Positions 1,532 through 25,148 of a stretch of DNA of 64,000 bases are shown piece by piece. Under the pieces are notes generated by a model. The model worked only from the letters and a program-made list of their open reading frames with translations, had not been told where the DNA came from and did not search any database. The translations under genes and the position numbers were made by a program. The stretch is from assembly GCA_017938315.1 (NCBI GenBank), contig JAGBBV010000030.1, positions 270,025 to 334,024 on the forward strand, in the 5' to 3' direction. Source of the stretch: Lachnospiraceae bacterium. GTDB taxonomy: Bacteria; Bacillota; Clostridia; Lachnospirales; Lachnospiraceae. How positions within the stretch are numbered: position 1 is the first letter of the stretch; each line of letters opens with the position of its first letter.

Positions 1532-1551
1532 GTTAATAATTTCTTAATATT

Positions 1552-1583
1552 AAAAGCGGAACCTTTTAAATGGTTCCGCTTTT
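1552..1583 (+). terminator. Intrinsic terminator after the DUF6056-like gene
   Basis: A perfect 12-bp inverted repeat (AAAAGCGGAACC and GGTTCCGCTTTT) with an 8-base loop starts 20 bases after the stop codon. The right arm ends in a T run. This separates the first gene from the operon starting at 1740. Confidence 0.85.
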
Positions 1584-1739
1584 GTGTATACTATAAATAG
1601 TAATAGGCGGTAAAACCAAGCTTTTAAAGAAATGCGTATTCATTAAAGTTTGAAAATGATCTTTCTTGAAAATGCTTTTCGGTGAAAAGACAGGTGCGTG
1701 ATAGAAGAGCGGAAATAAAAGAATAGGGAGAAGAAATAA

Positions 1740-3140
1740 GTGTTTGTTTCATTCTATTTTCTTGTCTTTTTGGTGATAACGGTACTTCTTTTTTTTAGTG
1801 TTAAAAAAACATGGAGACCCCAAGTTCTTTTGGCGACAAGCTATTTTATTTGCGGCGCAATTTCTGCATATGCCTTAATTGCAATGCTTGGGGTAACAGT
1901 CATATCCTATTTTGTAGCCATAAAAATAGAAAAATATTTTGACGAGAAAAAGGACGGGGAAGCTAAGCTAATTTTGACGATAGCAGTCATTGGCACGCTG
2001 CTATTCCTTGTGAGATATAAATATACTCCGAATACTTTACAATTAATAGGAATCTCCTTTTATACATTTCAGGCAATTGCTTATATGGTAGATGTATATC
2101 GGAGAAAATACAAATCGGAGAAAAATTTTGTTTATTTGGCATTATTTTTTTCATTATTTGCAAAGCTTATAAGTGGACCTATAGAGCGTGGGGACAAGTT
2201 ATTACCTCAACTAAAGTGGCTGGAGAAGGTCCGTTTTGGAAATAGGGCAAGACTCTCTACAGCATTTACATATATGTTGTGGGGGTATTTTATGAAGATG
2301 GTAGTAGCTGATAGATTGGCTGTTACCGTAAATGCTATTTTCCATAGCCCACAATTCTTTGATAGTTTTTGGCTGTTTCTGGGGGCTTTTTTTTACACAA
2401 TCCAGATTTATTGTGATTTCGCAGGATATTCCTATATTGCTATAGGATGTGCCAGATTATTTGGAATTCATCTCACCCATAATTTTGAGACACCATATTG
2501 TTCAAAAAGTATAATAGAGTTTTGGAAATGTTGGCATATTTCTTTAAGCAGCTGGCTGAAGGAATATTTATATATTCCTTTAGGAGGAAACAAAAAAGGA
2601 GAACTTAGGAAGTATGGAAATCTTATAATTGTGTTTGTGCTTTGCGGCATTTGGCATGGTGTGGGTCTTAACTTTGTGGTATGGGGATTGATTCATGGAG
2701 TTTATTCGGTTATCAATCACATTTGGAGAAAATATCATAAGCAATCGCAGAAGTGTATTTGGGGGATTGTTTCATGGATAACGACCTTTACTTCTGTTAT
2801 GATAGCATGGATTTTTTTCAGGGCACCCGACTTAAAAAATGCAGGCATATACTTCTGGCGGATACTGACAGTAGGAATGAATGTAAACAGTATAAGAGAA
2901 GGTGCAATGCAACTTAATTTAAATGATGTAGAAATTGCTGTAATCGCAGTGGGAATTATTGTTGTGATGGTGATGGACTATATTTGTAATCGGAAGCAAA
3001 TCCATTTGCCGGAACTTATTCAACATAGAGGGAATGCAATGCGTTACTTGATTTTCTACTTGCTGATAATTGCTATTTTTGTCTTTGGCATATATGGACC
3101 GGGATATCATGCAGAACAGTTTATTTATATGCAATTTTAA
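1740..3140 (+). CDS. MBOAT family O-acyltransferase (AlgI/DltB-like)
   Basis: This membrane-bound O-acyltransferase has 466 residues, the usual length for AlgI-type proteins. It shows the family hallmarks: a central FAGYSYIAIG stretch, the FWKCWHISLSSWL block with the YLYIPLGGN loop, and the catalytic region IWHGVGLNF with His306, followed by a second His near 319 in GLIHG. About ten membrane segments are visible. The start is GTG at 1740 behind GGGAGAAGA. It is the first gene of a tightly spaced seven-gene operon, and the next gene is an SGNH-type partner, the usual pairing for extracytoplasmic O-acetylation of polysaccharide or teichoic acid. The acyl acceptor cannot be read from the sequence. 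A second, diverged MBOAT/SGNH pair lies at 23685-26255. Confidence 0.9.
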   Translation: MFVSFYFLVFLVITVLLFFSVKKTWRPQVLLATSYFICGAISAYALIAMLGVTVISYFVAIKIEKYFDEKKDGEAKLILTIAVIGTLLFLVRYKYTPNTLQLIGISFYTFQAIAYMVDVYRRKYKSEKNFVYLALFFSLFAKLISGPIERGDKLLPQLKWLEKVRFGNRARLSTAFTYMLWGYFMKMVVADRLAVTVNAIFHSPQFFDSFWLFLGAFFYTIQIYCDFAGYSYIAIGCARLFGIHLTHNFETPYCSKSIIEFWKCWHISLSSWLKEYLYIPLGGNKKGELRKYGNLIIVFVLCGIWHGVGLNFVVWGLIHGVYSVINHIWRKYHKQSQKCIWGIVSWITTFTSVMIAWIFFRAPDLKNAGIYFWRILTVGMNVNSIREGAMQLNLNDVEIAVIAVGIIVVMVMDYICNRKQIHLPELIQHRGNAMRYLIFYLLIIAIFVFGIYGPGYHAEQFIYMQF

Positions 3141-3151
3141 AAGGGAAAGCT

Positions 3152-4195
3152 ATGAGAAGTGAAAATAAAAAGCATTTGATACGAATAGGTGCAATTACTA
3201 TTTTTGCGGTTACAATATATATGTTGACAGCAGTGCTGGGATTCAAGTCACCTCACGGGATCAATCAATTGGAAGGATTATATAAACAACCAAAAGGAAC
3301 AATAGATGTAGTGTTCATGGGAACGAGCCACATACACTGTGGTGTCAATACCGGGCTGCTATGGGAAAAGTACGGAATGGCTTCTTATGATTACAGCGGT
3401 GCAGAACAACCGCTTTGGATGACATACCATTATTTAAAGGAATTGTATAAATATCAGTCGCCTGAAGTAGTGGTAATCGATTTGTTTGCACCTGCAAGGA
3501 TTAAGGAGGATTATCAGTATACATGGATGAATGAGAATATCCATGGCATGCGTTTTTCGCTAAATAAGCTTCAGATGATGTTTGCCAGTATGGAGCCACA
3601 TATGATTAGTAAATATTTTCCATCATTTGCCTCTTATCACAGTAGATATGATGATTTGGAAAAAGGGGATTTTAACGATTTTTTTTGGAATGACCATGAG
3701 CAAATTGCTTTTAAAGGATATACTCCTTATTTTAAAAAGGAACCACAGGACAAACCTGAAATAGAGACAACTGAGCAGGGTGGTTTAACAGAAAAATCTG
3801 AGAAGTATTTACGGAAAATAATAAAATATACAAAGGAACAGGGGAGTGAACTTGCATTTATAGTAGTTCCATATATTATGACAGAAAGTGATAAAGAAAC
3901 ATATAATGAGATTTGCCGGATTGCGAGAGAAGAAGATGTTTTTTTTGTGGATTATAATGAGTGCTATAAAGAAATAGGGTTGGATTTTGCGAATGATTTT
4001 AATGATAATTCACACTTGAATTACTGGGGAAGCTGTAAATTTACATCATTCTTAGGAGAAAATTTGAGAGCTAATTTCCATATTTCAAACAAAGCCGGAT
4101 GGGAAGGCTATGAATCGTGGGATGAGAATACAAAGCTAATTTTAGAAGAATTGGAGATTTGGAAAGAAGAAACCTTTTCAAATCTCCTATTTTGA
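3152..4195 (+). CDS. SGNH/DltD-like partner of the MBOAT acyltransferase
   Basis: This 347-residue protein has an N-terminal membrane anchor (about residues 11-30) and an extracytoplasmic SGNH-like domain. Block I reads GTSHIHCG with the likely nucleophile Ser59. The C-terminal block reads DNSHLN, with Asp285 and His288 spaced as in the catalytic Asp-x-x-His. It starts 11 bases after the MBOAT gene, the standard AlgI/AlgJ or DltB/DltD arrangement. In that scheme the MBOAT protein moves an acyl group across the membrane and the SGNH protein places it on the glycan. All three catalytic positions appear intact, so it should be active. The acceptor polymer is not identified. Confidence 0.82.
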   Translation: MRSENKKHLIRIGAITIFAVTIYMLTAVLGFKSPHGINQLEGLYKQPKGTIDVVFMGTSHIHCGVNTGLLWEKYGMASYDYSGAEQPLWMTYHYLKELYKYQSPEVVVIDLFAPARIKEDYQYTWMNENIHGMRFSLNKLQMMFASMEPHMISKYFPSFASYHSRYDDLEKGDFNDFFWNDHEQIAFKGYTPYFKKEPQDKPEIETTEQGGLTEKSEKYLRKIIKYTKEQGSELAFIVVPYIMTESDKETYNEICRIAREEDVFFVDYNECYKEIGLDFANDFNDNSHLNYWGSCKFTSFLGENLRANFHISNKAGWEGYESWDENTKLILEELEIWKEETFSNLLF

Positions 4196-4238
4196 TGTAC
4201 AATTTTAAGGATGGGGTAAAGTTTGAAAAGGATTATAT

Positions 4239-5795
4239 ATGAAGAAATTAAAATTATTTGTAATAATAATGTCATGCTTATTTTTGGTGGTATATTTAAA
4301 CTATAATAAATTGGAGAATAGCCTTAATCATACAGTGATGGACACCAAAGTGCTGTCGCCGGAAGAAATAGAATTGAGGCTGGAAACAAAGGAAAAAACA
4401 TTTATTTGGCCTGAGATTACCATAAATGGCGGTAGGGTTCCGTATGATTTAGATTTAAATATGTTACTGATTCCGCAGAGTATGGCAGAAAGTGAAATGA
4501 CAGGTACACTAAGCGTGCCGGACGGAGAATTATTTTTTGCAGCAGACGAAGCACTTGAGGACAAGCAAAGTGCATTAAGCGAAAACAAACGTTTTTCTCT
4601 ATATTGGGTTAGGGATAATATTTGCTTTGAGTATAATGTATACTTTACGGGAATGCCTGTCATGTGGATGATAACGGAAAGCGTTGATGAGCTGGAAGTT
4701 TCACACGGAACAGTTGAAATTTATGACCCATATCATAGTAATTTGCAGGTGCAGAAATCTGCTTGTAACTGGCATCGGCGTGGTGCCACCACATTGCAAT
4801 ATGAAAAATCCAGTTATCGGTTGACACTAACAGAACAAAAGTTATCCTTGCTTGGTATGAGGAAGGATGATGATTGGATGATGCATGCATTGTATGATGA
4901 TGATGGTTTGATTCACAATAAATTGTCATATGAAGTATGGCAGAAAATAGCTAGCACAAATAACGTACCTAATGATGAAGGCATTTCCATGGAGTATGTG
5001 GAAGTGTTCAAAGATGGTTATTATCAAGGTGTATATGGAATCTCGGAAAGAATTGACGAAAAAGAACTGGGTTTGAATGAGAAGGACATTCTTTATAAAT
5101 GCAAGTGGGACAGAGAACCTACAGAAGATGATTTCTACAGCGAACTTACAGAGGAAATGACTCCGTCTTTTGAGTGGAAGTATCCTGATAATTTCCAGAT
5201 GGAGAATTGGGAACCACTTAGGAAATGGACAGATTTTTATTGCATGGGAGAACTAAATGATTATGAATCAGGAAAAGCTCTTTTAAATATGCAAAATGCG
5301 ATTGACTATAACATATTTAATTTGTTAATCTGTGGCATGGACAACACTATGAAAAATATATATTTCTGGGCAGATTATCAAGGAGATGGGACCTATCGCT
5401 TTATCAAAATACCTTGGGATTTAAATATGACATGGGGCAATTCATGGATTGATGATATCACCTATAAGTTCAATAAGTATCAGGAGAAGACTTTGAATAA
5501 CCAGTGGGGGTGGACAAATGATATGGATACTTTGTATCAAGCAAACCCCGGAGAAATCGGAGAACTACTCAAAGTGCGCTGGCAGGAACTGCGACAGGAT
5601 GTTCTTACAAAAGAAGTATTATATAGTTTGGCAGACGCGGAATTTTCATATTTACATGGTTCCGGTGCATATGCAAGAAATTATCAAAAATGGCCGGCTG
5701 AAACTGATTATTGGTTAGATAACTATATCTATGAATATATTGATAAAAAAATTGATTATTTAGATGAATACTTCGGACAGATGGGAGAGCCATAA
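4239..5795 (+). CDS. CotH-type secreted/membrane-anchored protein kinase-like protein
   Basis: This 518-residue protein has one N-terminal membrane segment (about residues 4-22). Its C-terminal two thirds match the CotH kinase fold seen in spore-coat and secreted kinases. Visible marks are YEKSSYRLTL with a candidate ATP-binding Lys, the VEVFKDGYYQGVYGISERI block, a catalytic-loop-like D368-N-T-M-K-N373, and PWDLNMTWG with Asp394 as candidate metal ligand. Residues 90-190 look like an extra beta-rich module. CotH family members phosphorylate exported proteins. The stop codon overlaps the start of the VTC-domain gene by one base, which implies coupled translation. The CotH-VTC-DUF4956 order recurs in many bacteria as I recall it. 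Substrate and exact role are unknown; outward orientation is inferred from the single N-terminal anchor. Confidence 0.8.
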   Translation: MKKLKLFVIIMSCLFLVVYLNYNKLENSLNHTVMDTKVLSPEEIELRLETKEKTFIWPEITINGGRVPYDLDLNMLLIPQSMAESEMTGTLSVPDGELFFAADEALEDKQSALSENKRFSLYWVRDNICFEYNVYFTGMPVMWMITESVDELEVSHGTVEIYDPYHSNLQVQKSACNWHRRGATTLQYEKSSYRLTLTEQKLSLLGMRKDDDWMMHALYDDDGLIHNKLSYEVWQKIASTNNVPNDEGISMEYVEVFKDGYYQGVYGISERIDEKELGLNEKDILYKCKWDREPTEDDFYSELTEEMTPSFEWKYPDNFQMENWEPLRKWTDFYCMGELNDYESGKALLNMQNAIDYNIFNLLICGMDNTMKNIYFWADYQGDGTYRFIKIPWDLNMTWGNSWIDDITYKFNKYQEKTLNNQWGWTNDMDTLYQANPGEIGELLKVRWQELRQDVLTKEVLYSLADAEFSYLHGSGAYARNYQKWPAETDYWLDNYIYEYIDKKIDYLDEYFGQMGEP

Positions 5796-6478
5796 TGAAT
5801 TACAGACATGAATTAAAATTTATAGTGTCTGACCTGGAACTAAATATTTTAAAATATCGGTTGATGCCTTTAATGCATGAAGACAGACACCAAAAAGGTG
5901 GCGTATATAACATCAGAAGTTTGTATTTTGATGACTTCTATGATACGTGTATGCATGAAAATGAAGACGGAATAGATAATCGAAAAAAATACCGGATTCG
6001 TATTTACAATGGAAGTGACCATGTCATTAAGCTGGAGAAGAAAATAAAAGTCCGGGGAATGACGAGAAAGATAAGCACCGGTATTGATAAAGAAAAGTGT
6101 TTGACCTACATGAAAGGGGAAACGCTTATTCCAAACAAAGACAGCACGGATTTAGAAAGAGAATTTTATGCTGAAATCAAAATGAATGGTATGCATCCTG
6201 TGAGCATTGTGGAGTATGAGCGAACCGCGTTTGTGGACTTTAGAGGAAATACAAGAATTACTTTTGACAGGAACATCAGTGGAAGTGAAAAGATTGCTTC
6301 TTTTTTTGATAAGCCGGTACTGACACCGTTATTACCAAAGGGAAAACATATTTTAGAAGTAAAATATGATGAATTGATTCCTGAATATTTATTACAGGTG
6401 CTAGATATTGGAAGTCTACAGAGAACTGCCTTTTCAAAATATTATTTATCACGAAATTATCAAAATACTTGGAAATAA
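5795..6478 (+). CDS. VTC-domain protein (putative polyphosphate polymerase)
   Basis: This soluble protein of 227 residues consists almost entirely of a VTC domain, the catalytic tunnel fold of yeast Vtc4. The expected basic and acidic tunnel pattern is present: YRHELKF at the start, IRSLYFDD, an R-x-R strand (KKYRIRIY), the KLEKKIKVRG strand, VEYER, and LEVKYD near the end. Because these charged positions are kept, an active ATP-dependent polyphosphate polymerase is plausible. It has no signal peptide or membrane segment, so it should act in the cytoplasm, perhaps docked on the DUF4956 membrane protein encoded 13 bases downstream. It starts inside the stop codon of the CotH-like gene. Bacterial VTC proteins beside CotH and DUF4956 are known as a neighbourhood but their joint function is not settled. 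Confidence 0.85.
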   Translation: MNYRHELKFIVSDLELNILKYRLMPLMHEDRHQKGGVYNIRSLYFDDFYDTCMHENEDGIDNRKKYRIRIYNGSDHVIKLEKKIKVRGMTRKISTGIDKEKCLTYMKGETLIPNKDSTDLEREFYAEIKMNGMHPVSIVEYERTAFVDFRGNTRITFDRNISGSEKIASFFDKPVLTPLLPKGKHILEVKYDELIPEYLLQVLDIGSLQRTAFSKYYLSRNYQNTWK

Positions 6479-6491
6479 GGGAGGAGAATAA

Positions 6492-7166
6492 ATGAATTTC
6501 GGAGATGTAATTAAGAAGTCTGTGTTGGAAGGTTTTACATATTCAGACTTATCTACTACTAAAATTTTAACGACTTTGCTTATAACGTTTGCCATAGCAG
6601 TGTACATTTTCTGTGTATATAAGTTAGTCACAAAAAGTGCTTTCTATTTCAAAAGCTTTAATGTATCAATGGCTATTATTTCTGTGGTTACTGCAGGAAT
6701 TATTTTGGCGATGCAATCCAGTATTGTGATTTCCCTTGGTATGGTTGGTGCGCTTTCTATTGTAAGATTCCGTACAGCTATTAAAGACCCTATGGATTTG
6801 TTGTTTCTGTTTTGGTCTATTGGAACAGGCATCATTTGTGGGGCGGGATTATATAAGATTGCTGTAATCCTGGCAGTTCTTATAACAGTAGGAATCTTAA
6901 TTTTAGACCTGTTCCCTATTAGAATGAGTCCATATTTACTGATAATAAATGCTTCTTCTAAAGAAACTGAAAGCGAAATCAAAGATACTTTAAAAGAGAT
7001 GAAAGTGGGATATAAATTGAAATCAAAAAATATCACCAAAGAAGGGATGGACCTCATCTTAGAAGTAAAAACAAAACAGGAAACAGAAGTTGTGGATGCT
7101 ATTTCCGAGATGGAAGGTATTGTAGCAGTTTCTTTGCTCGCACATGATGGAGAGATAAAAGGTTAG
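6492..7166 (+). CDS. DUF4956 membrane protein
   Basis: This 224-residue protein has about four N-terminal membrane helices followed by a cytoplasmic alpha/beta tail of about 80 residues. The most characteristic stretch is the loop and helix around GALSIVRFRTAIKDP, continuing into LLFLFWSIGTG, which is the signature of the DUF4956 family. The family has no established biochemical role; it is typically encoded next to VTC-domain and CotH genes, as here. A good AGGGAGGAG site precedes the ATG. A channel, flippase or membrane platform for the product of the VTC enzyme is a reasonable inference but is not shown by sequence. Confidence 0.85.
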   Translation: MNFGDVIKKSVLEGFTYSDLSTTKILTTLLITFAIAVYIFCVYKLVTKSAFYFKSFNVSMAIISVVTAGIILAMQSSIVISLGMVGALSIVRFRTAIKDPMDLLFLFWSIGTGIICGAGLYKIAVILAVLITVGILILDLFPIRMSPYLLIINASSKETESEIKDTLKEMKVGYKLKSKNITKEGMDLILEVKTKQETEVVDAISEMEGIVAVSLLAHDGEIKG

Positions 7167-7176
7167 AGGAGTAACA

Positions 7177-9126
7177 ATGACAAAAACAGGAAAAAGTGTT
7201 TGTTGTGGAAGTATAGTATTTGCGTTATTTGCAATGATGCGTAACTTCATAGCGGTGAGCAATATGTTATTCTATTTGATGGCATGTGTATTTTTTGTCT
7301 TAGGCACATTGATGACATATTTGTTTTTGGATTCGAAAGGTAGAGAAAATAGAGCACTGGGAAATACGCTGTGGTCTGTATTGCCGATAGTAACATTGAT
7401 TGTTTGGATGATTTTATTTTTTATAAACGAGACAGATATAGCACCGGAACAGTCTTTGGATTCAAAAGCGTTGATTCGAAATTATTTTTCTTTTCCCCTA
7501 TGGTTTACGATAACAGCGGTAGGAGTGTTGATTTGCCTGTTTCTATTGCGGAATCAGCCGAAAGACGAAACAAGAAGAATTAGAACAGCAATACGTGTGA
7601 TTATTTCAATACTTTTTACACTGGGAACAGCGGTTCAGTTTTACGCGCCAAATATTTTCATGGATGTGCAAGGTGGGACTTATCACAGTCATGCCTATAC
7701 AAACAGCATTATTAACACATGCTGGTTAATACCATATAGTGAACACAACCAGGCTCTTTATGGACATTATGGCATTCTTTTTATGCCTGCGCTGAAGGCA
7801 TTGCATAGCATTCTGGGAATAGATTATTTGACAGGAATCTTTCTGGTAAGTGCTATTATTGCCGGTGTTTCCATACTTTTGTTTGCATGGGTGTTAAACT
7901 ACTTTGCAAAGAATGAAATTATTTTTTATTTGGGCATATTTTCCATAGGTGAATATTATTTTATGCTGATGCAAGGCGGAGTATTTTTGCAAGTACACCC
8001 TCATCGCATGATTTTTCCGATAATTATGGCAGCACTAGCCTTGTGGGAATATAGAAAGGCGAAAAAATATAATGTTTTGGCCATTTTGCTTATTGCATTA
8101 TCAATTGTCTGGTCGACGGAAGTAGGACTTGTTATAATGGTTGCATTTGCACTTTACCGATGGGTGCAAGGTATAATGGACGGAAAACGGTTTTTGCCGG
8201 CCAAAATATTAAAATTATTGCCTCAAATATTGTTTTTTATAGTTGTTCCTTTTGTGATATCATATATAATTGTAAATGGATATAATATTGCAGTAGGCGG
8301 TGAGTTGCTAGATATAAAAGAATTTTTATTTCCGCTTATTTCTGAACGGGGATATATAAGTGATATAGAACTTCCACTTCCTGATGTTACGCACGCATGG
8401 ATTGGTACGTCAATACTGTTTTTGGGAACCGTGTGGGTAGCAGCACGTCCTATATTATTTCCCCGAGAAAATGAAAATCCAAAGGACAGACCTTTTTATT
8501 TTCTGCTGGGTGTTATGAGCCTGGGATTGATGCTCTATTACATTAACCGTCCTGTGGAAGGAAGTTTGTTTATCATTATGTATTTTATGCTTATTATGCA
8601 AGTTATTATTTTGCAGAAAGCACAGAATAAATATATGGCATGGAAACAAAACAAAGAACCAATTTTTGCAGGACAAAATACATTTGTTTTTCTTGCATTG
8701 AGAGTAATTACTACGTTAATATTATTTGTAATGACATTTGATTCCTTGTATTCTATGCCCAAGGCCTGGAAAGCGTCAGCAGAAACAATTTGGAGAAGAG
8801 ATGAACTGAAAGCATTTGCGGAACAAATTTATGTGGAGATTCCGCCCGATGCCGTGTCATTTGGAGAAGGAGTGCCGGAACTGTTGTCAATGGTGGATAG
8901 AGATACGCACCTTCATACAACAGAATGGTCATATCGTAATATGCCGTTTGATACAATGAAAGAAATACGATATAGTATAGATGATGAAAAATGGCTGTTT
9001 TGCTCACAGGAAAGTTTATATTACTTCCAATTGGAATGTCCGGGATTAACAGATCATTATAATTTACACGGCATGCTTGAATATGATAGCAGACAGTTCG
9101 CACTATGGGAAAGAATAGAAGAATAA
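7177..9126 (+). CDS. Large polytopic membrane protein, GT-C-like
   Basis: This 649-residue protein has about 13 hydrophobic segments and a hydrophilic C-terminal tail of about 110 residues. After the fourth or fifth segment comes a long polar loop (GTYHSHAYTNSIIN, then HNQALYGHYGIL) that recalls the first extracytoplasmic loop of GT-C glycosyltransferases, but I cannot name a family. It starts 10 bases after the DUF4956 gene behind a GAGG site and precedes a radical SAM gene, so it belongs to the same operon. A polymerase or glycosyltransferase acting outside the membrane is possible; so is a transporter. Function unknown. Confidence 0.65.
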   Translation: MTKTGKSVCCGSIVFALFAMMRNFIAVSNMLFYLMACVFFVLGTLMTYLFLDSKGRENRALGNTLWSVLPIVTLIVWMILFFINETDIAPEQSLDSKALIRNYFSFPLWFTITAVGVLICLFLLRNQPKDETRRIRTAIRVIISILFTLGTAVQFYAPNIFMDVQGGTYHSHAYTNSIINTCWLIPYSEHNQALYGHYGILFMPALKALHSILGIDYLTGIFLVSAIIAGVSILLFAWVLNYFAKNEIIFYLGIFSIGEYYFMLMQGGVFLQVHPHRMIFPIIMAALALWEYRKAKKYNVLAILLIALSIVWSTEVGLVIMVAFALYRWVQGIMDGKRFLPAKILKLLPQILFFIVVPFVISYIIVNGYNIAVGGELLDIKEFLFPLISERGYISDIELPLPDVTHAWIGTSILFLGTVWVAARPILFPRENENPKDRPFYFLLGVMSLGLMLYYINRPVEGSLFIIMYFMLIMQVIILQKAQNKYMAWKQNKEPIFAGQNTFVFLALRVITTLILFVMTFDSLYSMPKAWKASAETIWRRDELKAFAEQIYVEIPPDAVSFGEGVPELLSMVDRDTHLHTTEWSYRNMPFDTMKEIRYSIDDEKWLFCSQESLYYFQLECPGLTDHYNLHGMLEYDSRQFALWERIEE

Positions 9127-9151
9127 AATATCGGATAAAAGGAGATTAAAT

Positions 9152-10132
9152 ATGCCAGTAAGATATCATAATTTTGGAGGAAGAATCGGTTGGGAGATGC
9201 AGAAAAGATTACCTAAACTATCCTCTGAAAGTTATTTAAAACTTCAGTTTTTAACCAGAAATAAGCTGCAGAAAGAGTACATTGAATACTTCATGAACAG
9301 TGAAGAAACTCCTATGCCTTTAGTAGTCAATTTAGAGACCATTAACCGTTGTAACAGTACCTGTTCTTTCTGCACGGCAAACAAAAATGCAGAGAAACGT
9401 CAGTACAAGCGTATGGAAGATGATTTGTTTTACAGTATTATTGATCAGCTTCATGACTGGGGATATAAAGGACATTTAACACTTTATGGAAATAACGAAC
9501 CTTTCCTTGATACCAGAATTGTGGAGTTTCATAAGTACTGCAGAGAAAAGCTTCCGGATAGCTTCATTTTCCTCTCAACTAATGGACTTCTTTTGACAGT
9601 GGACAAATTAAAGGAAATTGTACCCTATGTGGATCAGTTTATTATCAATAATTATTGTAGGGATATGAAGTTACATGATAATGTTAAGGAAGTTTACGAT
9701 TATGTCAAAGCACATCCGGAAGAGTTTAAAGATGTGGATATTTTGATACAGATGCGTTATATGGATGCTGTACTCACCAATCGTGCCGGAAGCGCACCGA
9801 ATAAGCAGAATACACAGAAGATTATTAAAGAGACATGTTTAATGCCCTATACAGATATGTTTATCTTCCCTGACGGAAGAATGGGCATTTGTTGCTGTGA
9901 TAATTTTGAAGTAACTAATTTGGCAGATTTGACGCAAGTGCCACTAAAAGAGGCATGGAGTAGCGATGAGTACAAAAAACTGCGTGAGACAATACGGACA
10001 AGCCGAAGTGACTACGGGTTCTGTAAATATTGTGACTTCATTGATGCAGGACTTCGTATGGATGCTGTTGATGATACTTTAAAGAATCGTGAGGCAAATC
10101 ACGGAGCCAGACAGTCCTTATTCAGAAAATAG
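9152..10132 (+). CDS. Radical SAM protein with SPASM-like C-terminus
   Basis: This 326-residue cytoplasmic enzyme carries the radical SAM Cys67-x3-Cys71-x2-Cys74 motif (NRCNSTCSFC). The C-terminal third has a cysteine set that fits a SPASM auxiliary iron-sulfur domain: Cys229, Cys247-249 and the Cys291/Cys294 pair (YGFCKYC). LTLYGNNEP after strand two matches the usual GGEP-like SAM-binding position. SPASM enzymes act on peptides, proteins or sugars. No small precursor peptide gene is visible next to it, and its operon partners are surface-polymer genes, so a sugar or lipid-linked substrate is the better guess. Its stop codon overlaps the convergent HAD gene by 15 bases, and its transcript probably ends at a terminator lying inside that gene (10407-10439). 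Confidence 0.85.
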   Translation: MPVRYHNFGGRIGWEMQKRLPKLSSESYLKLQFLTRNKLQKEYIEYFMNSEETPMPLVVNLETINRCNSTCSFCTANKNAEKRQYKRMEDDLFYSIIDQLHDWGYKGHLTLYGNNEPFLDTRIVEFHKYCREKLPDSFIFLSTNGLLLTVDKLKEIVPYVDQFIINNYCRDMKLHDNVKEVYDYVKAHPEEFKDVDILIQMRYMDAVLTNRAGSAPNKQNTQKIIKETCLMPYTDMFIFPDGRMGICCCDNFEVTNLADLTQVPLKEAWSSDEYKKLRETIRTSRSDYGFCKYCDFIDAGLRMDAVDDTLKNREANHGARQSLFRK

Positions 10133-10801
10133 AAGCGGATATTGAGTTCGGCGCTGGAATTTATGCTTCCTTAAAATCAAATAATCTGTACCGGCTGATA
10201 TGGCTGCCTGGCCGTCTTTGCTTTGGCGGTCACCAATCATAAGCACTTTGGAAGGTTCTGTGATACCATAAACAGACATGATATAGGTAAGACCTTTAGG
10301 GTCCGGTTTCATACAGCCAATTTCTTCCTGTCCGCCATAAAAGCATGGAATGGCAGGGAGCTTAAGAGCATCACGTTTGTCAATAGCCGGATAATCAGAA
10401 TAAATCACCACCTGTTTTTTTCGCAGGTGGTATTTTTTTATGATTTCAAAGAGTGTATGGTCCCGATACTTGCAAATGATAGAGAGTGGTTTGTTATAAA
10501 TCCATTCTTTTACAGCCTTTTCGATGTCTGCTGGAGATTTTCCTGTTTGTGAAGCTAAATATCTATACTGAGCGTTGTCAATATCTGCATCAGAATTATC
10601 GGAAGAAACCTTAACTTCATTCCATTGCTCCCGCAATTTGCGGAATTTTAGAACAGTTATCATTTCCGAAAGACCTCCTGGTTTTAAGCATGAGCAAATC
10701 ATTTTAAAAGCCATATGAATTTGTAAGGGACGCTGAAAATAAAGCGTCCCATCCATGTCAAATATGATTAATTCGTATTCGTTAATATTCTTTTTCATCA
10801 T
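10118..10801 (-). CDS. HAD superfamily phosphatase
   Basis: This 227-residue haloacid-dehalogenase-type hydrolase has motif I IFDMDGTLYF, a motif II Ser in VVIYSDYPA, a motif III Lys in GCMKPDPKG, and motif IV VLMIGDRQSKDG with its acidic residues. It has an alpha-helical cap after motif I. It is the last gene of a leftward operon behind a UbiA-type phosphoribosyltransferase-like gene (29-base gap). In mycobacteria the analogous product, polyprenyl-phosphoryl-5-phosphoribose, must lose its 5-phosphate. This HAD enzyme could do that step, a suggestion that rests on gene order only. Its 3' end overlaps the radical SAM gene by 15 bases. Confidence 0.85.
   Translation of the reverse strand: MMKKNINEYELIIFDMDGTLYFQRPLQIHMAFKMICSCLKPGGLSEMITVLKFRKLREQWNEVKVSSDNSDADIDNAQYRYLASQTGKSPADIEKAVKEWIYNKPLSIICKYRDHTLFEIIKKYHLRKKQVVIYSDYPAIDKRDALKLPAIPCFYGGQEEIGCMKPDPKGLTYIMSVYGITEPSKVLMIGDRQSKDGQAAISAGTDYLILRKHKFQRRTQYPLLFSE
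10407..10439 (+). terminator. Rightward intrinsic terminator inside the convergent HAD gene
   Basis: ACCACCTG and CAGGTGGT form a perfect 8-bp stem with a 9-base loop, followed by one A and seven Ts on the plus strand. On the minus strand no T run follows, so it acts only on rightward transcripts. It lies about 275 bases past the radical SAM stop codon, antisense to the HAD coding sequence. Confidence 0.6.
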
Positions 10802-10830
10802 AATTCCTTTGGTTTCAATATACAGAGAAC

Positions 10831-11757
10831 TTACAGGTTAATTAAGTGCGGATCACTGAATGAATGTAAAGAAGGAATGTCTACCAGTGTCAGCAAAATA
10901 AAGATAGCAATTACAAGACCTACAATCATTAGAAGTTTTTTCTCTTTGTATAGCTTTTCGGGCTTTTGCACGGCAGAGTCTTCGTTGAATGCCATCATAA
11001 CATAATAGGCAAACAGTAAAAACATAAAAGGCATGGCAACCACATATTCGATACGGTATTTTACAAGAAAGATGCCGATACAGAAAGTGGCACACAGTGC
11101 ATAAAAGAAAGAAGAACCAAATAATGTTTTTTCTGTGTAATATTTAAAGGATTTCCGATATAAACCGGCTACTTCCGGATTATTAATCATCCGATATTCT
11201 GCAAGACGCTTGGTGCCCATAAGGAATGCGCCGGCCATCCAGTAACCGATTAAAATACTTACAGGCGGAATGACACAGTCTGTTATTATAAACCAGCCGA
11301 GAAGCAAACGGATCATATTATTAACTGATTCAGAAAGTACGTCAAGGAAGATGATATCTTTGCTTCTGATGGGTTTAACATTATAGATTAGTCCCATTAC
11401 AAGAAGCCATATTTCCATGGCGAGAAACAAATAATTGATACACAATGATAAAAGAATACCGAGCGCTGCAAAAATCAGATATTCTATAAGTACAAATTTA
11501 AACTTTACATTTCCACCTACCACAGGACGATATTTTTTTGTGGGATGAAACTTATCAAACTCTGCATCCAGCCATTCGTTTATTACGTAATTGGCAGAAG
11601 CAATAAAGCAGGTAGCCAAAAAACCGATAATCATGTAAAACACATTGGCGGAACGTTGGCTTTCGTCTAATAGAAGGATTGCCACAGCGATACCGGGAAT
11701 AATAAATGCATTTTTAATCCAATGATCAAGTCTTGCAATTTTAATGTAATCTTTCAT
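10831..11757 (-). CDS. UbiA-family polyprenyl-phosphate phosphoribosyltransferase-like enzyme
   Basis: This 308-residue integral membrane protein has about eight or nine helices. The first aspartate motif reads N60-x3-D64-x3-D68 followed by H71-P-x-K-x2-RP, the form typical of decaprenyl-phosphate phosphoribosyltransferases (Rv3806c type), not of quinone or heme prenyltransferases. The N-terminal RLDHWIKN also fits that subgroup. Such enzymes join phosphoribosyl pyrophosphate to a polyprenyl phosphate, giving a lipid-linked pentose donor for extracytoplasmic GT-C enzymes. It sits between an FAD oxidoreductase and a HAD phosphatase in one operon, with several GT-C-like proteins nearby that could use the product. 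Specific substrate is inferred from motif and context. Confidence 0.82.
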   Translation of the reverse strand: MKDYIKIARLDHWIKNAFIIPGIAVAILLLDESQRSANVFYMIIGFLATCFIASANYVINEWLDAEFDKFHPTKKYRPVVGGNVKFKFVLIEYLIFAALGILLSLCINYLFLAMEIWLLVMGLIYNVKPIRSKDIIFLDVLSESVNNMIRLLLGWFIITDCVIPPVSILIGYWMAGAFLMGTKRLAEYRMINNPEVAGLYRKSFKYYTEKTLFGSSFFYALCATFCIGIFLVKYRIEYVVAMPFMFLLFAYYVMMAFNEDSAVQKPEKLYKEKKLLMIVGLVIAIFILLTLVDIPSLHSFSDPHLINL

Positions 11758-11784
11758 GAGGTACTCCTAAGAATGATTTGTATA

Positions 11785-13359
11785 TTAGTCAACTTCAGCC
11801 TCGTTTTGTTTGGCTTCTTCATGATATTCTTTCTCTGTGTTAACGCTCCAGATGTTCGTTTTATCTTTTTCACCGGATAAAATATTTTTTACAGTCTCAA
11901 AAGAGGTTACCATGGAATGATCAATATTATTGTATCTGTGCTGACCGTTACGGCCTACGCAGTATAGGTTGTCAATTGTCTTAAGATAATCAACCAGAGT
12001 ATCAATTTCATCGTAAGTGTCAAAGTAAGCAGGATAAGCTTTCTTTACTTTTTCCATATGAGTATCAATTACCACGTCAGCACTGCTAATCAGTCCTAAT
12101 TTAATCATTTCGTCAATACCGATTTTGGAGAATTCCTCTTCTGACATATTCCAGAATTCATCACCTTCATTAACAAAGTATTCAAGACCAATCCATACAG
12201 TGTTTTCTAAATCTTTAATCATGTAAGGAGACCAGTTGTTATAAATCTGAAAACGTCCCAGCTTAACATTACGGTCCTGAACATATACCCAACAGTCGGG
12301 CACAATATTGCTGACAGTCTTGATGTCTGTTTTATTAACAAGGTTAATCTTAGGAACTAAAACACCTAAAGTCATATAATCACGGTAAGGAAGTCCTGCG
12401 GCAATCCGTGCAGGTTCGGAAGGAACATCATTCATGCCTTCAACTAAATCTTTGACAGGCATGGAGGAAATAATGTAATCTCCTTCCATGGTACACTCTT
12501 CGCCGTTCATTTCATAACTAAGGCCTGTAAGAAGGTTGTCCGCGTTTTTGTGAATCTTGGTTACCTTGGCATTTTTATAGATGGTACCGCCAAGCTTTAT
12601 AATTTCTTCTGCAGTGACATCCCAAAGCTGACCGGGACCTAATTTCGGGTATTTAAACTCTTCTATCAGAGAAGTTTCTACTTTACGGTTTTTAACTTTG
12701 AATATTTTTCCAAAGATATCTTTGATAATGGCAATAATAGAAAGTCCCTTTACGCGCTGTGCTCCCCAGGAAGCATCAATCTCACGGGGATGACGTCCCC
12801 AGAGGTTTGCCGTGTAGTATTCAAAAAACATAGAATATAGTTTGCGACCAAAGCGATTAATATAAAAGTTTTCAAGGTTATCTTCGGGTAATTTGCGGAA
12901 CAGGGAAGCAAGATAACTAAAGCCTACTTGCATGGTTGTAAAAAAGCCCATGTTTTTGAGGGTTTCCCATTTCAGTGAAACGGGATAATCATAAAATTTG
13001 GAGTCAAAAAGAATACGTGATACGCGGTGTCTGGTGAGCATAACACGATCTTCCTTTTCCGGATCCGGACCGCCTTTGGAGAGAGGCATGGGACGATTTA
13101 AAATAATATCATCATAGGTAGGATGTCCTTGCATGGGAAGCATATTGTCCCACCAAGCATTTACCTCAGGAATTTTGGAGAAGAAACGGTGTCCGCCCAT
13201 ATCCATGCGGTTTCCTTTATAATTTACTGTTTTAGAAATTCCACCAAAGCAGTCGCTTTCTTCAAAAACTACTACTTCAATGTCATCAGATTTTGTTAAC
13301 AGTTCATATGCTGCGGTGAGTCCTGCAGGACCCGCTCCAATAATCAGAGCTTTTTTCAT
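11785..13359 (-). CDS. FAD-dependent oxidoreductase (amine oxidase / UDP-galactopyranose mutase-like fold)
   Basis: This 524-residue flavoprotein begins with a dinucleotide-binding GAGPAGL at residues 8-14, followed by an acidic [11 protein letters not shown] turn and the MGGHRFF segment seen in protoporphyrinogen-oxidase-like and UDP-galactopyranose-mutase-like proteins. A C-terminal FAD contact ([16 protein letters not shown]) is present. It is longer than a standard UDP-galactopyranose mutase (about 370-400), so that name should not be applied. It is the first gene of a leftward operon with the UbiA-like and HAD genes and has its own promoter at 13398-13426. A redox or isomerase step on a lipid-linked or nucleotide sugar is a fair inference; the reaction is unknown. 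Confidence 0.75.
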
Positions 13360-20258: not shown

Positions 20259-21773
20259 ATGAAAAAAATAAATTGGAAATATATAAAAGTGGGGTATTTT
20301 CTTTTGGCGGCATTTTTGATTATATTGTTTGCCAGCCGCTCATCATTTTTGTACCCTTGCAATAATTGGAACGATGCAAATAGCTATTTTTCTGTAGGCA
20401 AGGCACTATTTAATGGGAAAGTTCCGTACAGAGACGTGTTTGACCAAAAAGGAATGTACCTCTACTTTTTTTATGGACTTGCTTATTTAGTTTCTCATAC
20501 TACTTTTGCGGGTGTTTTTTTGATGGAAGTTATACTGGCGACTTTTGATATTGCAGGTATTTGTAAGATATTAAAGTTGTTTGTAAAGGAAAAGACAGCA
20601 CTGATTTTAACACCTATGGTGCTTGCGGTGAGCTTTGCTTCTTATAGTTTTTATTGGGGCGGATGTGCAGAAGAGGTATGTCTTCCGTTTATCATTTGGG
20701 GCTTGTACTTTTCACTTGCATATTTTAAAAATGATTATCCTGATAAGGAAATGCCCAAAAGGACATTGTTTATTGGCGGATTGCTTGCAGGAATGGTTGC
20801 AAATATTAAGTTTACATCGCTTGGATTTTTCTTTGCATGGATGATGTGTGTTGCATTTTCTTTTCTTGTAAAAAAGAATTTTTTCGGAGCGGTAAAAGCA
20901 TGCCTGATTTTTTTGGCGGGAATGCTGATTCCTTTTGTTCCGTGGTTTATTTATTTTGCAATTCATAATGCACTTTACTATTGGTATTGGGGATATGTGT
21001 GGGTTAATGTGTTTGCCTACAGCAACTTAAATAATGAAGGACCGAGTCTATTTGAGCGTATCTATATTTTGGCTAAAATTCTATATTGGCTTATTATTCA
21101 AAATTTTGGATATTTTGTATTTATAATACCCGGTGTACTTGCTTTCTTTTTCGGAAAAGGGAAGAAAATACTGGAACGTTTTAATATATTGGCGTTATGC
21201 TTTTTTCTGTTCATCGGAATATATATAGGTGGTTTGCAACTTCCTTATTATGCATTGCCGTTAAGCGTATTTGCCGTTTTGGGATTTGCTCTTCTGGGAC
21301 GGATCATCGAGTGGATACTGAAAAAAACAGGTATGGTTTTCCTGAAAAAGAGTGCCGTGCTTGTGACTTTAAGTTTCTTGTCCATAGTTGTAAGTACATG
21401 TTTTATATACTTTACTTCTATGAACACACCCTTTATGAAGGAAAAGAGAGAAGATATGTTTCTCTATAAATTTAAGGAGATTGTGGAGCAGGAAGAAAAC
21501 CCCACACTTCTTAATATAAGCTGTCTCGATGCCGGTCTCTATACAGTTTGCGACATAGTGCCTACCTGCCAATGGTTCCAGACCCAGACGGTAATTATGG
21601 AAACTGTGCTCGGGGAGCAGGAACGTTATATTAGAGAAGGCCTTATCAGCTTTATCATTGCGAGGGATGAATATCCGCAGGCAATATGGGAGCGGTATGA
21701 ATTGGTGGCACAGGAACCTTGGTATCACGAAGGAACGGAATTCACATATTATTTATTTAAAAGGAAAGAGTAA
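20259..21773 (+). CDS. GT-C/GT39-like membrane glycosyltransferase
   Basis: This 504-residue protein has about eleven membrane helices. The loop after the first helix reads NDANSYFSVGKALFNGKVPYRD and then VFDQKGMYLYFFYG, the pattern of ArnT/PMT-like enzymes often labelled teichoic acid or glycosyltransferase family 39 proteins in Firmicutes. The C-terminal 120 residues form a soluble extracytoplasmic domain. It begins a rightward group that continues with the DUF6077 gene after only three bases. No convincing promoter is visible in the 157-base divergent region on this strand, although a TAAAAT lies near 20217. Donor and acceptor sugars are unknown. Confidence 0.72.
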   Translation: MKKINWKYIKVGYFLLAAFLIILFASRSSFLYPCNNWNDANSYFSVGKALFNGKVPYRDVFDQKGMYLYFFYGLAYLVSHTTFAGVFLMEVILATFDIAGICKILKLFVKEKTALILTPMVLAVSFASYSFYWGGCAEEVCLPFIIWGLYFSLAYFKNDYPDKEMPKRTLFIGGLLAGMVANIKFTSLGFFFAWMMCVAFSFLVKKNFFGAVKACLIFLAGMLIPFVPWFIYFAIHNALYYWYWGYVWVNVFAYSNLNNEGPSLFERIYILAKILYWLIIQNFGYFVFIIPGVLAFFFGKGKKILERFNILALCFFLFIGIYIGGLQLPYYALPLSVFAVLGFALLGRIIEWILKKTGMVFLKKSAVLVTLSFLSIVVSTCFIYFTSMNTPFMKEKREDMFLYKFKEIVEQEENPTLLNISCLDAGLYTVCDIVPTCQWFQTQTVIMETVLGEQERYIREGLISFIIARDEYPQAIWERYELVAQEPWYHEGTEFTYYLFKRKE

Positions 21774-21776
21774 AGT

Positions 21777-22856
21777 ATGATCGTATTACAAATAATCAGT
21801 CTCATATTCTGGCTGTTTGCAGTTCCCTTTGCCATGGGACTGTTGCCGGTAAGTTTGCTTCCGGAAAAGGACAGAACGCCGGGATGCATATTTTTGTCAG
21901 GATATCTGGTACTGTTTGCACTGTTTGAACTAATCGGGATACCGGTTGCGATTTTAAAAGTATATAACGGATTTTCGACTTTGTGCATAATCTTTGCCAT
22001 AGCAGCGGTTTTGCTTGGGGCCTTTGGTGTATTTTATACCTTGTCTATGCGTAAGAAAGGATATAACCTTTCCATAAACCTTGATAGGAAAGCATGGACG
22101 TGGGAAGATAAGATTTACATGTTGCTATTCTTACTATTGGTAGGATTCCAGCTTTATATGTCCTTTACCAGGGCGTCCTTTGACGGGGATGACTCTTATT
22201 ATAATGTGCAGGGCCTGATTGCACAGCAGATAGATACCTTATACCGGATTAATCCAAATACCGGTATCAGCGCACCCCTGGATGCCCGTCATGCATTGGC
22301 GCTGTTTCCTATCTGGGAGGCCTTTGTGGGAAAGATGAGCGGGATTCATATGACCATTGTGGCACACAGTATTGTGCCCTTTGTGCTTTTGCCTCTTACT
22401 TATCTGGTTTATTACAAAATCGGGCAGAGACTGTTTCGGGAAAAGAGAGACAGGCTTCCGGTATTTATGGTGTTGATGGCACTTTTCCAGATGTTTGGAA
22501 ATGTATCCATTTATACCAATGAAACCTTTTTACTGACCAGGACGTGGCAGGGTAAATCGGTTGCGGGAAATTTCATATTGCCGGCAGTCTTTTGGATTTT
22601 CTTTTGTCTGTTTGACAAGGAAAAGGAAAAGCGGGAAAAGAGAGAGCAGACCGGCTATTGGCTGCTCCTTGCAGTTCTAAATCTGGCAGCAGGAGTGAGC
22701 AGTTCCCTGGCTGTTATGTTATGTGCTCTTTTGGTTGCGGGACTTGCTTTTTTGTTTATGATAAAAGAGAAAAGCTTTGGTGTTTTGGTGAAGGCAGGAT
22801 TTGCCTGCATTCCGGCAGCAATGTATGTGCTGACCTATTTACTAATCGGCCGTTAA
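21777..22856 (+). CDS. DUF6077-like membrane protein, N-terminal part (probably interrupted)
   Basis: These 359 residues hold about nine hydrophobic segments and a DUF6077-like core: FDGDDSYYNVQGLIAQQIDT, then NPNTG, then the TRTWQGKSV block. The reading frame ends at TAA (22854-22856) directly after a membrane helix. The same frame stays open downstream through another 274 codons that contain further helices and the expected soluble tail. I therefore suspect that this ORF and 22881-23681 are one gene of about 634 codons split by a nonsense change. DUF6077 proteins look like GT-C-type glycosyltransferases. Two independent genes remain possible because an AAAGG site precedes the next ATG. Confidence 0.65.
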   Translation: MIVLQIISLIFWLFAVPFAMGLLPVSLLPEKDRTPGCIFLSGYLVLFALFELIGIPVAILKVYNGFSTLCIIFAIAAVLLGAFGVFYTLSMRKKGYNLSINLDRKAWTWEDKIYMLLFLLLVGFQLYMSFTRASFDGDDSYYNVQGLIAQQIDTLYRINPNTGISAPLDARHALALFPIWEAFVGKMSGIHMTIVAHSIVPFVLLPLTYLVYYKIGQRLFREKRDRLPVFMVLMALFQMFGNVSIYTNETFLLTRTWQGKSVAGNFILPAVFWIFFCLFDKEKEKREKREQTGYWLLLAVLNLAAGVSSSLAVMLCALLVAGLAFLFMIKEKSFGVLVKAGFACIPAAMYVLTYLLIGR

Positions 22857-22880
22857 GGAAAGGCAGAAAGGTGTTATCCT

Positions 22881-23681
22881 ATGTTTGGAATTTTTATGGA
22901 AAGCCTTGTGATTTTCAAATTATATACAGGCCTTAAGTTTCTGGTAGTGCTTTTTGCAGTAGCATGGGCATATCTTCTGATGACGGAAAAGGATAAGAAG
23001 ATAAGACTGTTGCTTGTGTATACGCCCCTACTTATTTTGCTGTTGTTCTTATGTCCCATCAGCAGAAAAGGCTTTGTGGCACTGGGACTTGACGGGGAAA
23101 CCTATTACAGGATTCTTTGGACCATTCCCATGGGGCTTGTGACGGTTTACGGTGCCTGCCGTTTGTTTGGAAGGCATAAGAGAATTGGACTTATTGTGAC
23201 AGCGGCACTGATTGTTTTTTGCGGAAAGTATGTGTATGACAGCCCTTATATGACAAAGGCTGAAAATTTGTATCATATTCCTGATACTGCCATTAAGATT
23301 TGTGATCTAATTGCCCCGGAGGGGGAAGAGGGCCACGTAATGGTGGTAGTGCCGGAAGAACTGGTCTATTTTATACGCCAGTATAATGCTAAGATTAAGA
23401 TGCCTTACGGAAGAGAAATGGTTGCCAGCCAGTGGAACTATTACCACCCGGTGCATGAAGCCATGGAAGAGTCCGAGGAACTTGTTTTTGAAGATTTGCT
23501 GGAAACCACCAGAGCAGAAAATTGTCAATATATTGTTGTATCACCTACCAGAAAAGTAAAAGATGACCCGAAAGAGTTAGGGCTTTTATCGGTGGCAACG
23601 GTTGACGGATATCGTGTTTATAAAGACCCGGTTGCAGCTGCCGCAGTTGAAGAAATTAATCAGTATTACAAAGAGGATTAA
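22881..23681 (+). CDS. DUF6077-like membrane protein, C-terminal part
   Basis: These 266 residues lie in the same frame as the preceding ORF, eight codons after its stop. They contain about four or five membrane segments, a YYRILWTIPMGL stretch and a soluble tail with GREMVASQWNYY that resembles the end of full-length DUF6077 proteins. An AAAGG nine bases before the ATG could allow separate translation, so a split but working two-piece protein is possible. As a stand-alone gene I do not recognise it. It runs to within three bases of the second MBOAT gene, so all belong to one transcript. Confidence 0.6.
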   Translation: MFGIFMESLVIFKLYTGLKFLVVLFAVAWAYLLMTEKDKKIRLLLVYTPLLILLLFLCPISRKGFVALGLDGETYYRILWTIPMGLVTVYGACRLFGRHKRIGLIVTAALIVFCGKYVYDSPYMTKAENLYHIPDTAIKICDLIAPEGEEGHVMVVVPEELVYFIRQYNAKIKMPYGREMVASQWNYYHPVHEAMEESEELVFEDLLETTRAENCQYIVVSPTRKVKDDPKELGLLSVATVDGYRVYKDPVAAAAVEEINQYYKED

Positions 23682-23684
23682 ACA

Positions 23685-25127: not shown

Positions 25128-25148
25128 TAAAGGATTTGGAATAGAGAT

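Follow-up and report, generated by a model that had tools for sequence, protein, structure and literature searches.

Polyphosphate in bacteria is credited to PPK enzymes (PMC4641920, PMC7332688), whereas a VTC synthase-translocase has been described for eukaryotes. Genes for CotH, a poly-phosphate polymerase (PPP) and DUF4956 have been reported to lie contiguous with Pel clusters in streptococci and clostridia, with a variant in bifidobacteria (PMC7112168). Here we compare with these systems a gene set found in a 64,000-nucleotide stretch of a Lachnospiraceae bacterium genome (assembly GCA_017938315.1, contig JAGBBV010000030.1, positions 270,025 to 334,024), the whole of which is called the window below. 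A first-pass annotation had singled out seven consecutive genes near its beginning, among them those for a CotH kinase, a VTC-domain protein and a DUF4956 protein, as the best candidate in the window for an undescribed system. The CotH/VTC/DUF4956 trio itself is not new, being already in print as a Gram-positive Pel-cluster accessory set (PMC7112168). In the literature, which was covered partially so that an absence is weak, nothing was found on an obligate VTC-DUF4956 pair, on the function of DUF4956 or on the Cthe_2159 alternative presented below. The finding that we report is narrower than the seven-gene run and stronger: VTC and DUF4956 form a near-obligate pair.

VTC and DUF4956 form a near-obligate pair with a swappable third gene

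Among 299 genomes of the phylum, VTC and DUF4956 occur in the identical 46, with no discordant case. For 52 of the 55 phylum VTC matches, a DUF4956 match lies on the same strand at a distance of at most 800 bases, and these 52 pairs are arranged as VTC-DUF4956 in 46 cases and in the reversed order in six. No fusion of the two proteins was noticed; the listed phylum open reading frames (ORFs) of both matches are shorter than 320 amino acids. In a survey of 150 genomes of the family, VTC was detected in 112. DUF4956 is present in 108 of these 112 and in none of the 38 genomes without VTC. We also examined 80 named loci, which are the best 80 of 295 VTC relatives and thus a sample biased to close kin. 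VTC has DUF4956 as its same-strand neighbour in 79 of them, and the sequence of the exception ends 21 bases past VTC. Both families were found in the same three of 14 control genomes (Bacteroides ihuae, Corynebacterium glutamicum and Methanosarcina acetivorans); in C. glutamicum, CotH gave a match as well. All five plasmid-collection records with a VTC match have DUF4956 alongside, including that of the actinomycete Nonomuraea. DUF4956 matched two more plasmid records, one of which (Acetoanaerobium) has VTC by profile. Evolutionary distances of VTC and DUF4956 are strongly correlated in a mirror-tree comparison of 101 pairs (r 0.938, permuted maximum 0.081), although shared species history enters into this value and a long-branch warning applies to the tree of DUF4956.

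The recurrence of a CotH-VTC-DUF4956 neighbourhood, proposed in the first-pass annotation, is confirmed by the named loci: beside the adjacent DUF4956, CotH lies within 3 kb of VTC in 75 of the 80, on the same strand in 66 and on the opposite strand in nine. In L049 and L069, which are among the five named loci lacking CotH, less than 1.7 kb of sequence precedes VTC. In the family survey, CotH is present in 71 of the 112 genomes with VTC and in 4 of the 38 others (Fisher p 1.2e-8, genomes taken as independent). CotH was not found within the flanks, of only about 1.5 kb, of the 30 best-scoring family loci (L005-L034). Fourteen of these 30 loci carry a Cthe_2159 gene (PF14262), which occurs in none of the 80 named loci. 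Both third genes were then counted within 4 kb of VTC in 51 phylum loci. These are what remains of the 55 VTC places once four are set aside: both places of this genome, that of G270 (its pair is split over contig ends) and a short additional copy in G477. CotH is present in 31 loci, Cthe_2159 in 15, both in one and neither in six; three of the latter six carry a protein with LRR plus LTD. CotH and Cthe_2159 tend to exclude each other (Fisher p 3.8e-7, with loci taken as independent, although the tree below has about six partner changes).

The VTC tree splits deeply in two (SH-aLRT 99). Of the 46 rows in one group, 27 have Cthe_2159, 3 have CotH and 16 are unlabelled; the 57 rows of the other comprise 49 with CotH, 3 with LRR-LTD, 1 with Cthe_2159 and 4 unlabelled ones. 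The partner label changes six times on this tree, against a mean of 26.5 after shuffling. Within Bacillota, the arrangement is VTC-DUF4956-Cthe_2159 in Paenibacillus and VTC-DUF4956-CotH in Planococcus, and VTC-DUF4956-CotH is found beyond this phylum in Nonomuraea. An early hydrophobic segment was detected in all 30 complete CotH proteins and in 12 of the 16 complete Cthe_2159 proteins of the phylum set, hydrophobic segments being called here and below by simple hydropathy. Some loci have a histidine kinase gene, perhaps for a regulator, next to VTC-DUF4956: such genes account for 5 of the 56 ORFs scanned in the flanks of L005-L034, and another is at L187:5292-6863.

The surface-polymer context suggested in the first-pass annotation is also found again in the 80 named loci, where a sugar-transferase cluster (29 loci), a LytR-CpsA-Psr cluster (26) and a GtrA cluster (20) lie within 6 kb of VTC, each neighbour cluster being named by one scanned representative. 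Their recurrence points to a wall-linked glycopolymer. The first two clusters also agree with another explanation, in which the trio regulates exopolysaccharide synthesis via protein phosphorylation, as suggested for Gram-positive Pel clusters, where CotH is proposed as a possible regulator of Pel (PMC7112168). We consider this role improbable. CotH is predicted to be outside, away from the cytosolic parts of a synthase, an N-terminal hydrophobic segment being present in 94 of the 94 CotH sequences left from 105 by a completeness filter (which retained 118 of 120 VTC and 117 of 121 DUF4956 segments), and non-kinase surface proteins replace CotH in many loci.

Conserved residues and a candidate mechanism

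The VTC domain of the window scores 120.7 bits, for a curated cut-off of 23. Searched alone against the PDB with phmmer, the protein gave only weak unrelated matches; the family profile matches yeast Vtc4 (3g3q) at 1.4e-14. In the significant segment of this alignment, window residues K8, R67, R69, K83, K92, R143 and R154 correspond to Vtc4 K200, R264, R266, K281, K294, R361 and R373. Window residues E188, K190 and K215 fall on Vtc4 E426, K428 and K458 in a second, sub-threshold segment of about 0 bits, where the mapping rests on LEVK and FSK motif matches. All ten mapped residues are invariant across 43 sequences, so that the mapped basic residues of the tunnel are not substituted, a possibility that had been raised with the original proposal. 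Lys-458 of Vtc4 is named as catalytic (PMC4641920), and polymerase activity of the window protein is likely, as predicted from these residues. Neither an SPX domain nor membrane helices were found in the window VTC, where only VTC matched, and a hydrophobic segment is present in none of 118 VTC proteins. The same genome encodes PPK1; VTC is therefore not needed merely for cytosolic polyphosphate. For the same reason, we rejected the idea that VTC is the sole polyphosphate synthase of this genome.

The window DUF4956 domain scores 41.7 bits (curated cut-off 30.6), and all 70 aligned members of the family match PF16316 at E-values up to 0.01. Residues G86, R92, F93, R94 and G113 are invariant across these 70 sequences. 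In a larger set, position 102 is acidic in 117 of 117 proteins, and 116 of the 117 have three to five hydrophobic segments. The DUF4956 profile retrieved nothing significant from the PDB. Compared by hhalign with 20 MgtC proteins, it gave 96.3% (E 1.8e-9) over 197 columns that include the C-terminal domain, against 0.07% for the VTC profile with MgtC and 0.2% for four-helix GtrA with DUF4956. An artefact of membrane composition was rejected on the basis of the GtrA control. Single-sequence scans agree weakly with this kinship, 10 of the 70 DUF4956 proteins matching PF02308 (best 2.1e-4). The window protein has no PF02308 match and reaches 19.8 bits with NF007431, for which 214 are required. 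Because it falls below the MgtC cut-offs, we regard DUF4956 as a distant relative of MgtC/SapB and not as a member. Basic residues line the yeast VTC channel (PMC9911596), to which R92 and R94 of DUF4956 may be likened by analogy.

From the observed pairing, partner swap and conserved tunnel residues, we infer, with confidence that is evenly balanced, that VTC and DUF4956 constitute a two-gene membrane module with an interchangeable outside-facing third protein, and that polyphosphate synthesized in the cytosol is passed outward. The VTC tunnel enzyme, predicted by hydropathy to be cytosolic, would make polyphosphate out of ATP. It would be docked by DUF4956, which by the same prediction is a small protein with several membrane passes, resembles MgtC and has its invariant Arg-Phe-Arg next to the membrane. 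DUF4956 would also hand the chain on to the exterior, a role ascribed in the yeast VTC complex to basic membrane helices. On the outer side, CotH (elsewhere Cthe_2159 or an LRR-LTD protein) would act on the product, or bind it, at the wall polymer, the module being located in a variable surface-polymer region.

The pairing of VTC with DUF4956 in 46 of 46 genomes of the 299-genome sample and its coexistence with PPK1 here point to a second prokaryotic polyphosphate route, by which phosphate chains may be brought to the other side of the membrane. Such an export would give DUF4956 a function, would explain why genes for CotH, Cthe_2159 and LRR-LTD proteins share one genomic niche and would make the phosphate source of an extracytoplasmic kinase testable. 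A bolder version, which we think rather unlikely, is that the pair is the prokaryotic polyphosphate synthase-exporter, in which DUF4956 is a new type of polyphosphate channel, and that CotH takes its phosphate from the exported chain outside the cell, where ATP is scarce. Cthe_2159 and the LRR-LTD proteins would then be other outputs, which bind polyphosphate. If true, bacteria would power an outside-facing kinase with polyphosphate in place of ATP.

Several observations speak against the outward-passing module. Four family genomes (G025, G118, G126 and G133) have VTC without DUF4956, the VTC match being weak in all except G118. In Hymenobacter, DUF4956 adjoins a TolC gene and no VTC was recognised within 4.5 kb. 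Four of the 16 complete Cthe_2159 proteins have no early hydrophobic segment by the measure used above. The window CotH has N396 at a position where 86 of 94 sequences have Asp, and in VTC E6 is invariant where Vtc4 has T198. Finally, MgtC is a regulator and is not known to be a polymer channel.

The Hymenobacter locus lies on a plasmid of Hymenobacter volaticus (L216), where DUF4956 is found next to a TolC family gene and a protein sorted by the type IX secretion system (T9SS); an adjacent protein of 359 amino acids has no Pfam match. As for CotH, the window domain scores 112.6 bits (cut-off 23.8) and keeps D368 and D394, the probable counterparts of the catalytic aspartates, each of which is Asp in 90 of 94 sequences. 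Through the 5jd9 alignment, D368 would correspond to D228 of Bacillus subtilis CotH, whose D228Q variant is inactive (PMC7821199). The eight CotH proteins with Asn at position 396 include that of the window and its nearest kin, and the CotH of a second gene set lying upstream of the window retains Asp. Given N396, the kinase of the window may be altered. Members of the Asn subgroup were seen at 4239-5795 of the window and in L035, L036, L052, L126 and L132.

The glutamate at position 6 bears on what VTC does. A plant tripolyphosphatase has glutamates 2, 4, 90 and 171 where Vtc4 has four chain-guiding basic residues (PMC4641920). In the window protein R4 and K190 are basic, like the aligned R196 and K428 of Vtc4, and E6 is acidic, as in a hydrolase. 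By a motif that we assume to be shared, Glu-2, Glu-4 and Glu-171 of AtTTM3 would be placed on R4, E6 and K190, with Glu-90 unplaced. E6 may be the Glu-4 of a tripolyphosphatase acidic patch, in which case VTC might act as a hydrolase, but this placement is not firm because T198, and not a basic residue, sits opposite E6 in Vtc4. In an alternative explanation, VTC would be a TTM enzyme that cleaves or senses triphosphate, and DUF4956, like MgtC, would regulate the balance of ATP or phosphate; nothing would be exported, and CotH would be a separate surface kinase. The invariance of E6, the resemblance of DUF4956 to what we take to be a regulator and the presence of PPK1, which already covers polyphosphate synthesis, all favour this alternative, which we judge unlikely but credible. 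Against it stand the basic R4 and K190 and the retained equivalent of the catalytic Lys-458, although the equivalences of K190 and Lys-458 come from the sub-threshold segment. In addition, the third gene product usually faces outside, whatever its family, and a cytosolic sensor would not need that.

The seven-gene run and its surroundings

The seven ORFs, all on the + strand and together spanning 1740-10132 (Table 1), are separated by gaps of 11, 43, 13, 10 and 25 bases, with one 1-base overlap. These coordinates bear out the tight co-directional arrangement noted in the first-pass annotation, whose MBOAT, CotH, VTC, DUF4956 and radical SAM/SPASM labels are each backed by a Pfam match. The SGNH label is upheld in part. 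The second ORF gave no significant match in Pfam or the PDB, but its hydrophobic N-terminal segment and its GTSH and DNSH motifs, presumably an SGNH-type signature, are consistent with an SGNH-type partner of MBOAT. No support was obtained for the label "GT-C-like" given to the 649-amino-acid protein.

Table 1. Positions of the gene run and of the hairpin preceding it, numbered from the first nucleotide of the window.
Feature	Coordinates	Strand	Characteristics
Stable hairpin, possibly a terminator	1545-1592	+	between upstream DUF6056 gene and the MBOAT-first gene run
MBOAT O-acyltransferase, DltB-like	1740-3140	+	PF03062 1.2e-20; GTG start; WHG motif at residue 305
SGNH/DltD-like candidate partner of MBOAT	3152-4195	+	N-terminal hydrophobic segment; GTSH (57), DNSH (285)
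CotH-family kinase, predicted outside	4239-5795	+	PF08757 3.6e-32; one N-terminal hydrophobic segment
VTC-domain (triphosphate tunnel) protein, 227 amino acids	5795-6478	+	PF09359 9.3e-35; 0 hydrophobic segments
DUF4956 protein	6492-7166	+	PF16316 1.3e-10; four hydrophobic segments, C-terminal soluble domain
649-amino-acid multi-pass membrane protein, no known family	7177-9126	+	ten hydrophobic segments; no significant Pfam match
Radical SAM/SPASM protein	9152-10132	+	Radical_SAM 2.8e-11, SPASM 1.2e-10

This layout favours the original idea that all seven genes form one dedicated pathway making and modifying a new phosphate-rich surface polymer. The distribution of the four extra genes argues against it. 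With profiles seeded from the window proteins, SGNH was detected in one of the 80 named loci and the other three genes (MBOAT, the 649-amino-acid gene, radical SAM) in none. The gene order of the window is kept in none of 15 same-genus loci fetched around the 649-amino-acid gene, with tblastn flanks of about 9 kb on each side, or less at contig ends. Of the proposed seven-gene conservation, what stands is that all seven kinds occur together once: L134, alone among the 15, has them within about 12 kb in a reshuffled order, which counts in favour of a pathway. Its CotH is matched only by the CotH of the upstream copy.

Of 35 same-genus genomes, 14 carry the 649-amino-acid gene at almost its full length, with 56-61% identity, and there is one further partial match. 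The gene is a same-strand neighbour of VTC-DUF4956 or CotH-VTC-DUF4956 in three of the 15 loci (L126, L133 and L134) and lies near an oppositely oriented VTC-DUF4956 pair in two (L123 and L132); in the other ten, tblastn found no VTC or DUF4956 in the flanks fetched. Among the four extra genes, the one for radical SAM is the most stable: 29 of the 35 genomes have it in its full length, with 81-92% identity, and in 12 of these 29 it lies directly 3' of a DUF4956 gene, as counted with the best 52 non-self DUF4956 places. This adjacency, too, is a point for a common pathway, which we nevertheless hold to be very improbable. The seven-gene order is a local arrangement, and in our best reading MBOAT/SGNH, the 649-amino-acid gene and radical SAM are genus-level polymer-locus genes beside the VTC-DUF4956 core. 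A second MBOAT gene is located at 23685-25127 of the window, in a run (20259-26255) that also contains a DUF6077 gene (21777-22856) and a 368-amino-acid protein without significant Pfam match.

The hairpin preceding the run looks like a terminator (-21.3 kcal/mol, z -6.85, equalled by 0 of 200 shuffles); it is absent from a terminator scan of the region, which listed seven other sites (shuffled mean 4.8). There are 47 promoter-like matches, where shuffling gives a mean of 39.6 (sd 6.3), so that no promoter could be located. Another terminator-like hairpin, of 14 pairs, occurs at 4153-4187, within the 3' end of the SGNH gene and just 5' of CotH. It could split the operon, but the matches of the terminator scan are near the chance number.

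The window starts inside a larger surface-polymer region (contig G000:C26). The second VTC-DUF4956-CotH set is located upstream on the same contig, beyond the window, with about 14.7 kb between the starts of the two VTC genes. Its order is GDSL, VTC, DUF4956, CotH, multi-pass protein, FAD protein, two GT2, DegT and DUF6056 (L003:7909-18066), and it has diverged, its VTC being 41% identical to that of the window. At 10118-13359 of the window, on the - strand, genes for an HAD phosphatase, a UbiA prenyltransferase and an FAD amine-oxidase-like protein stand in a row. Their matches in L132, of the same genus, are 60%, 84% and 86% identical. This row is reminiscent of the decaprenylphosphoryl-ribose route.

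Comparison with described systems

Like DltB/DltD, the window combines an MBOAT protein, which matches DltB structures at 3.9e-23, with a following SGNH-like gene. It differs in that this MBOAT protein scores 161.7 bits, below the DltB NCBIfam equivalog cut-off of 375, and in that no DltA or DltC was recognised among the ORFs scanned. MgtC/SapB proteins resemble DUF4956 along the 197 profile columns mentioned above, C-terminal domain included, whereas DUF4956 remains far below the cut-offs of their models and the invariant positions differ.

NELoc-2 of Clostridium perfringens is similar in that CotH and short membrane proteins are encoded next to its VTC-domain genes (PMC2879425, PMC11677781). 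Two of its genes, CP4_0461 and CP4_0464, encode proteins of 222-226 amino acids annotated as "tubulin/FtsZ GTPase" with a cytoplasmic-membrane location, and directly follow VTC genes (PMC2879425). From their size, predicted membrane location and position, they are probably mis-annotated DUF4956 genes.

The accessory set of Gram-positive Pel clusters comprises CotH, PPP, DUF4956 and DUF4832, among them the same three families, contiguous and beside exopolysaccharide genes (PMC7112168). The neighbours differ, however: no Pel genes were seen among the ORFs scanned here, where no profile search was aimed at Pel, and the Cthe_2159 alternative is unnamed in the available part of PMC7112168.

The eukaryotic VTC complex (Vtc1/Vtc2-3/Vtc4), a polyphosphate synthase and translocase, shares with the window protein the VTC tunnel domain and the mapped catalytic and basic residues. 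In both systems the partner of this domain has membrane segments and conserved basic residues. The window VTC departs from the eukaryotic proteins by having no SPX match or hydrophobic segment and by E6 in place of T198. Its partner is DUF4956, accompanied by an outside-facing third gene product.

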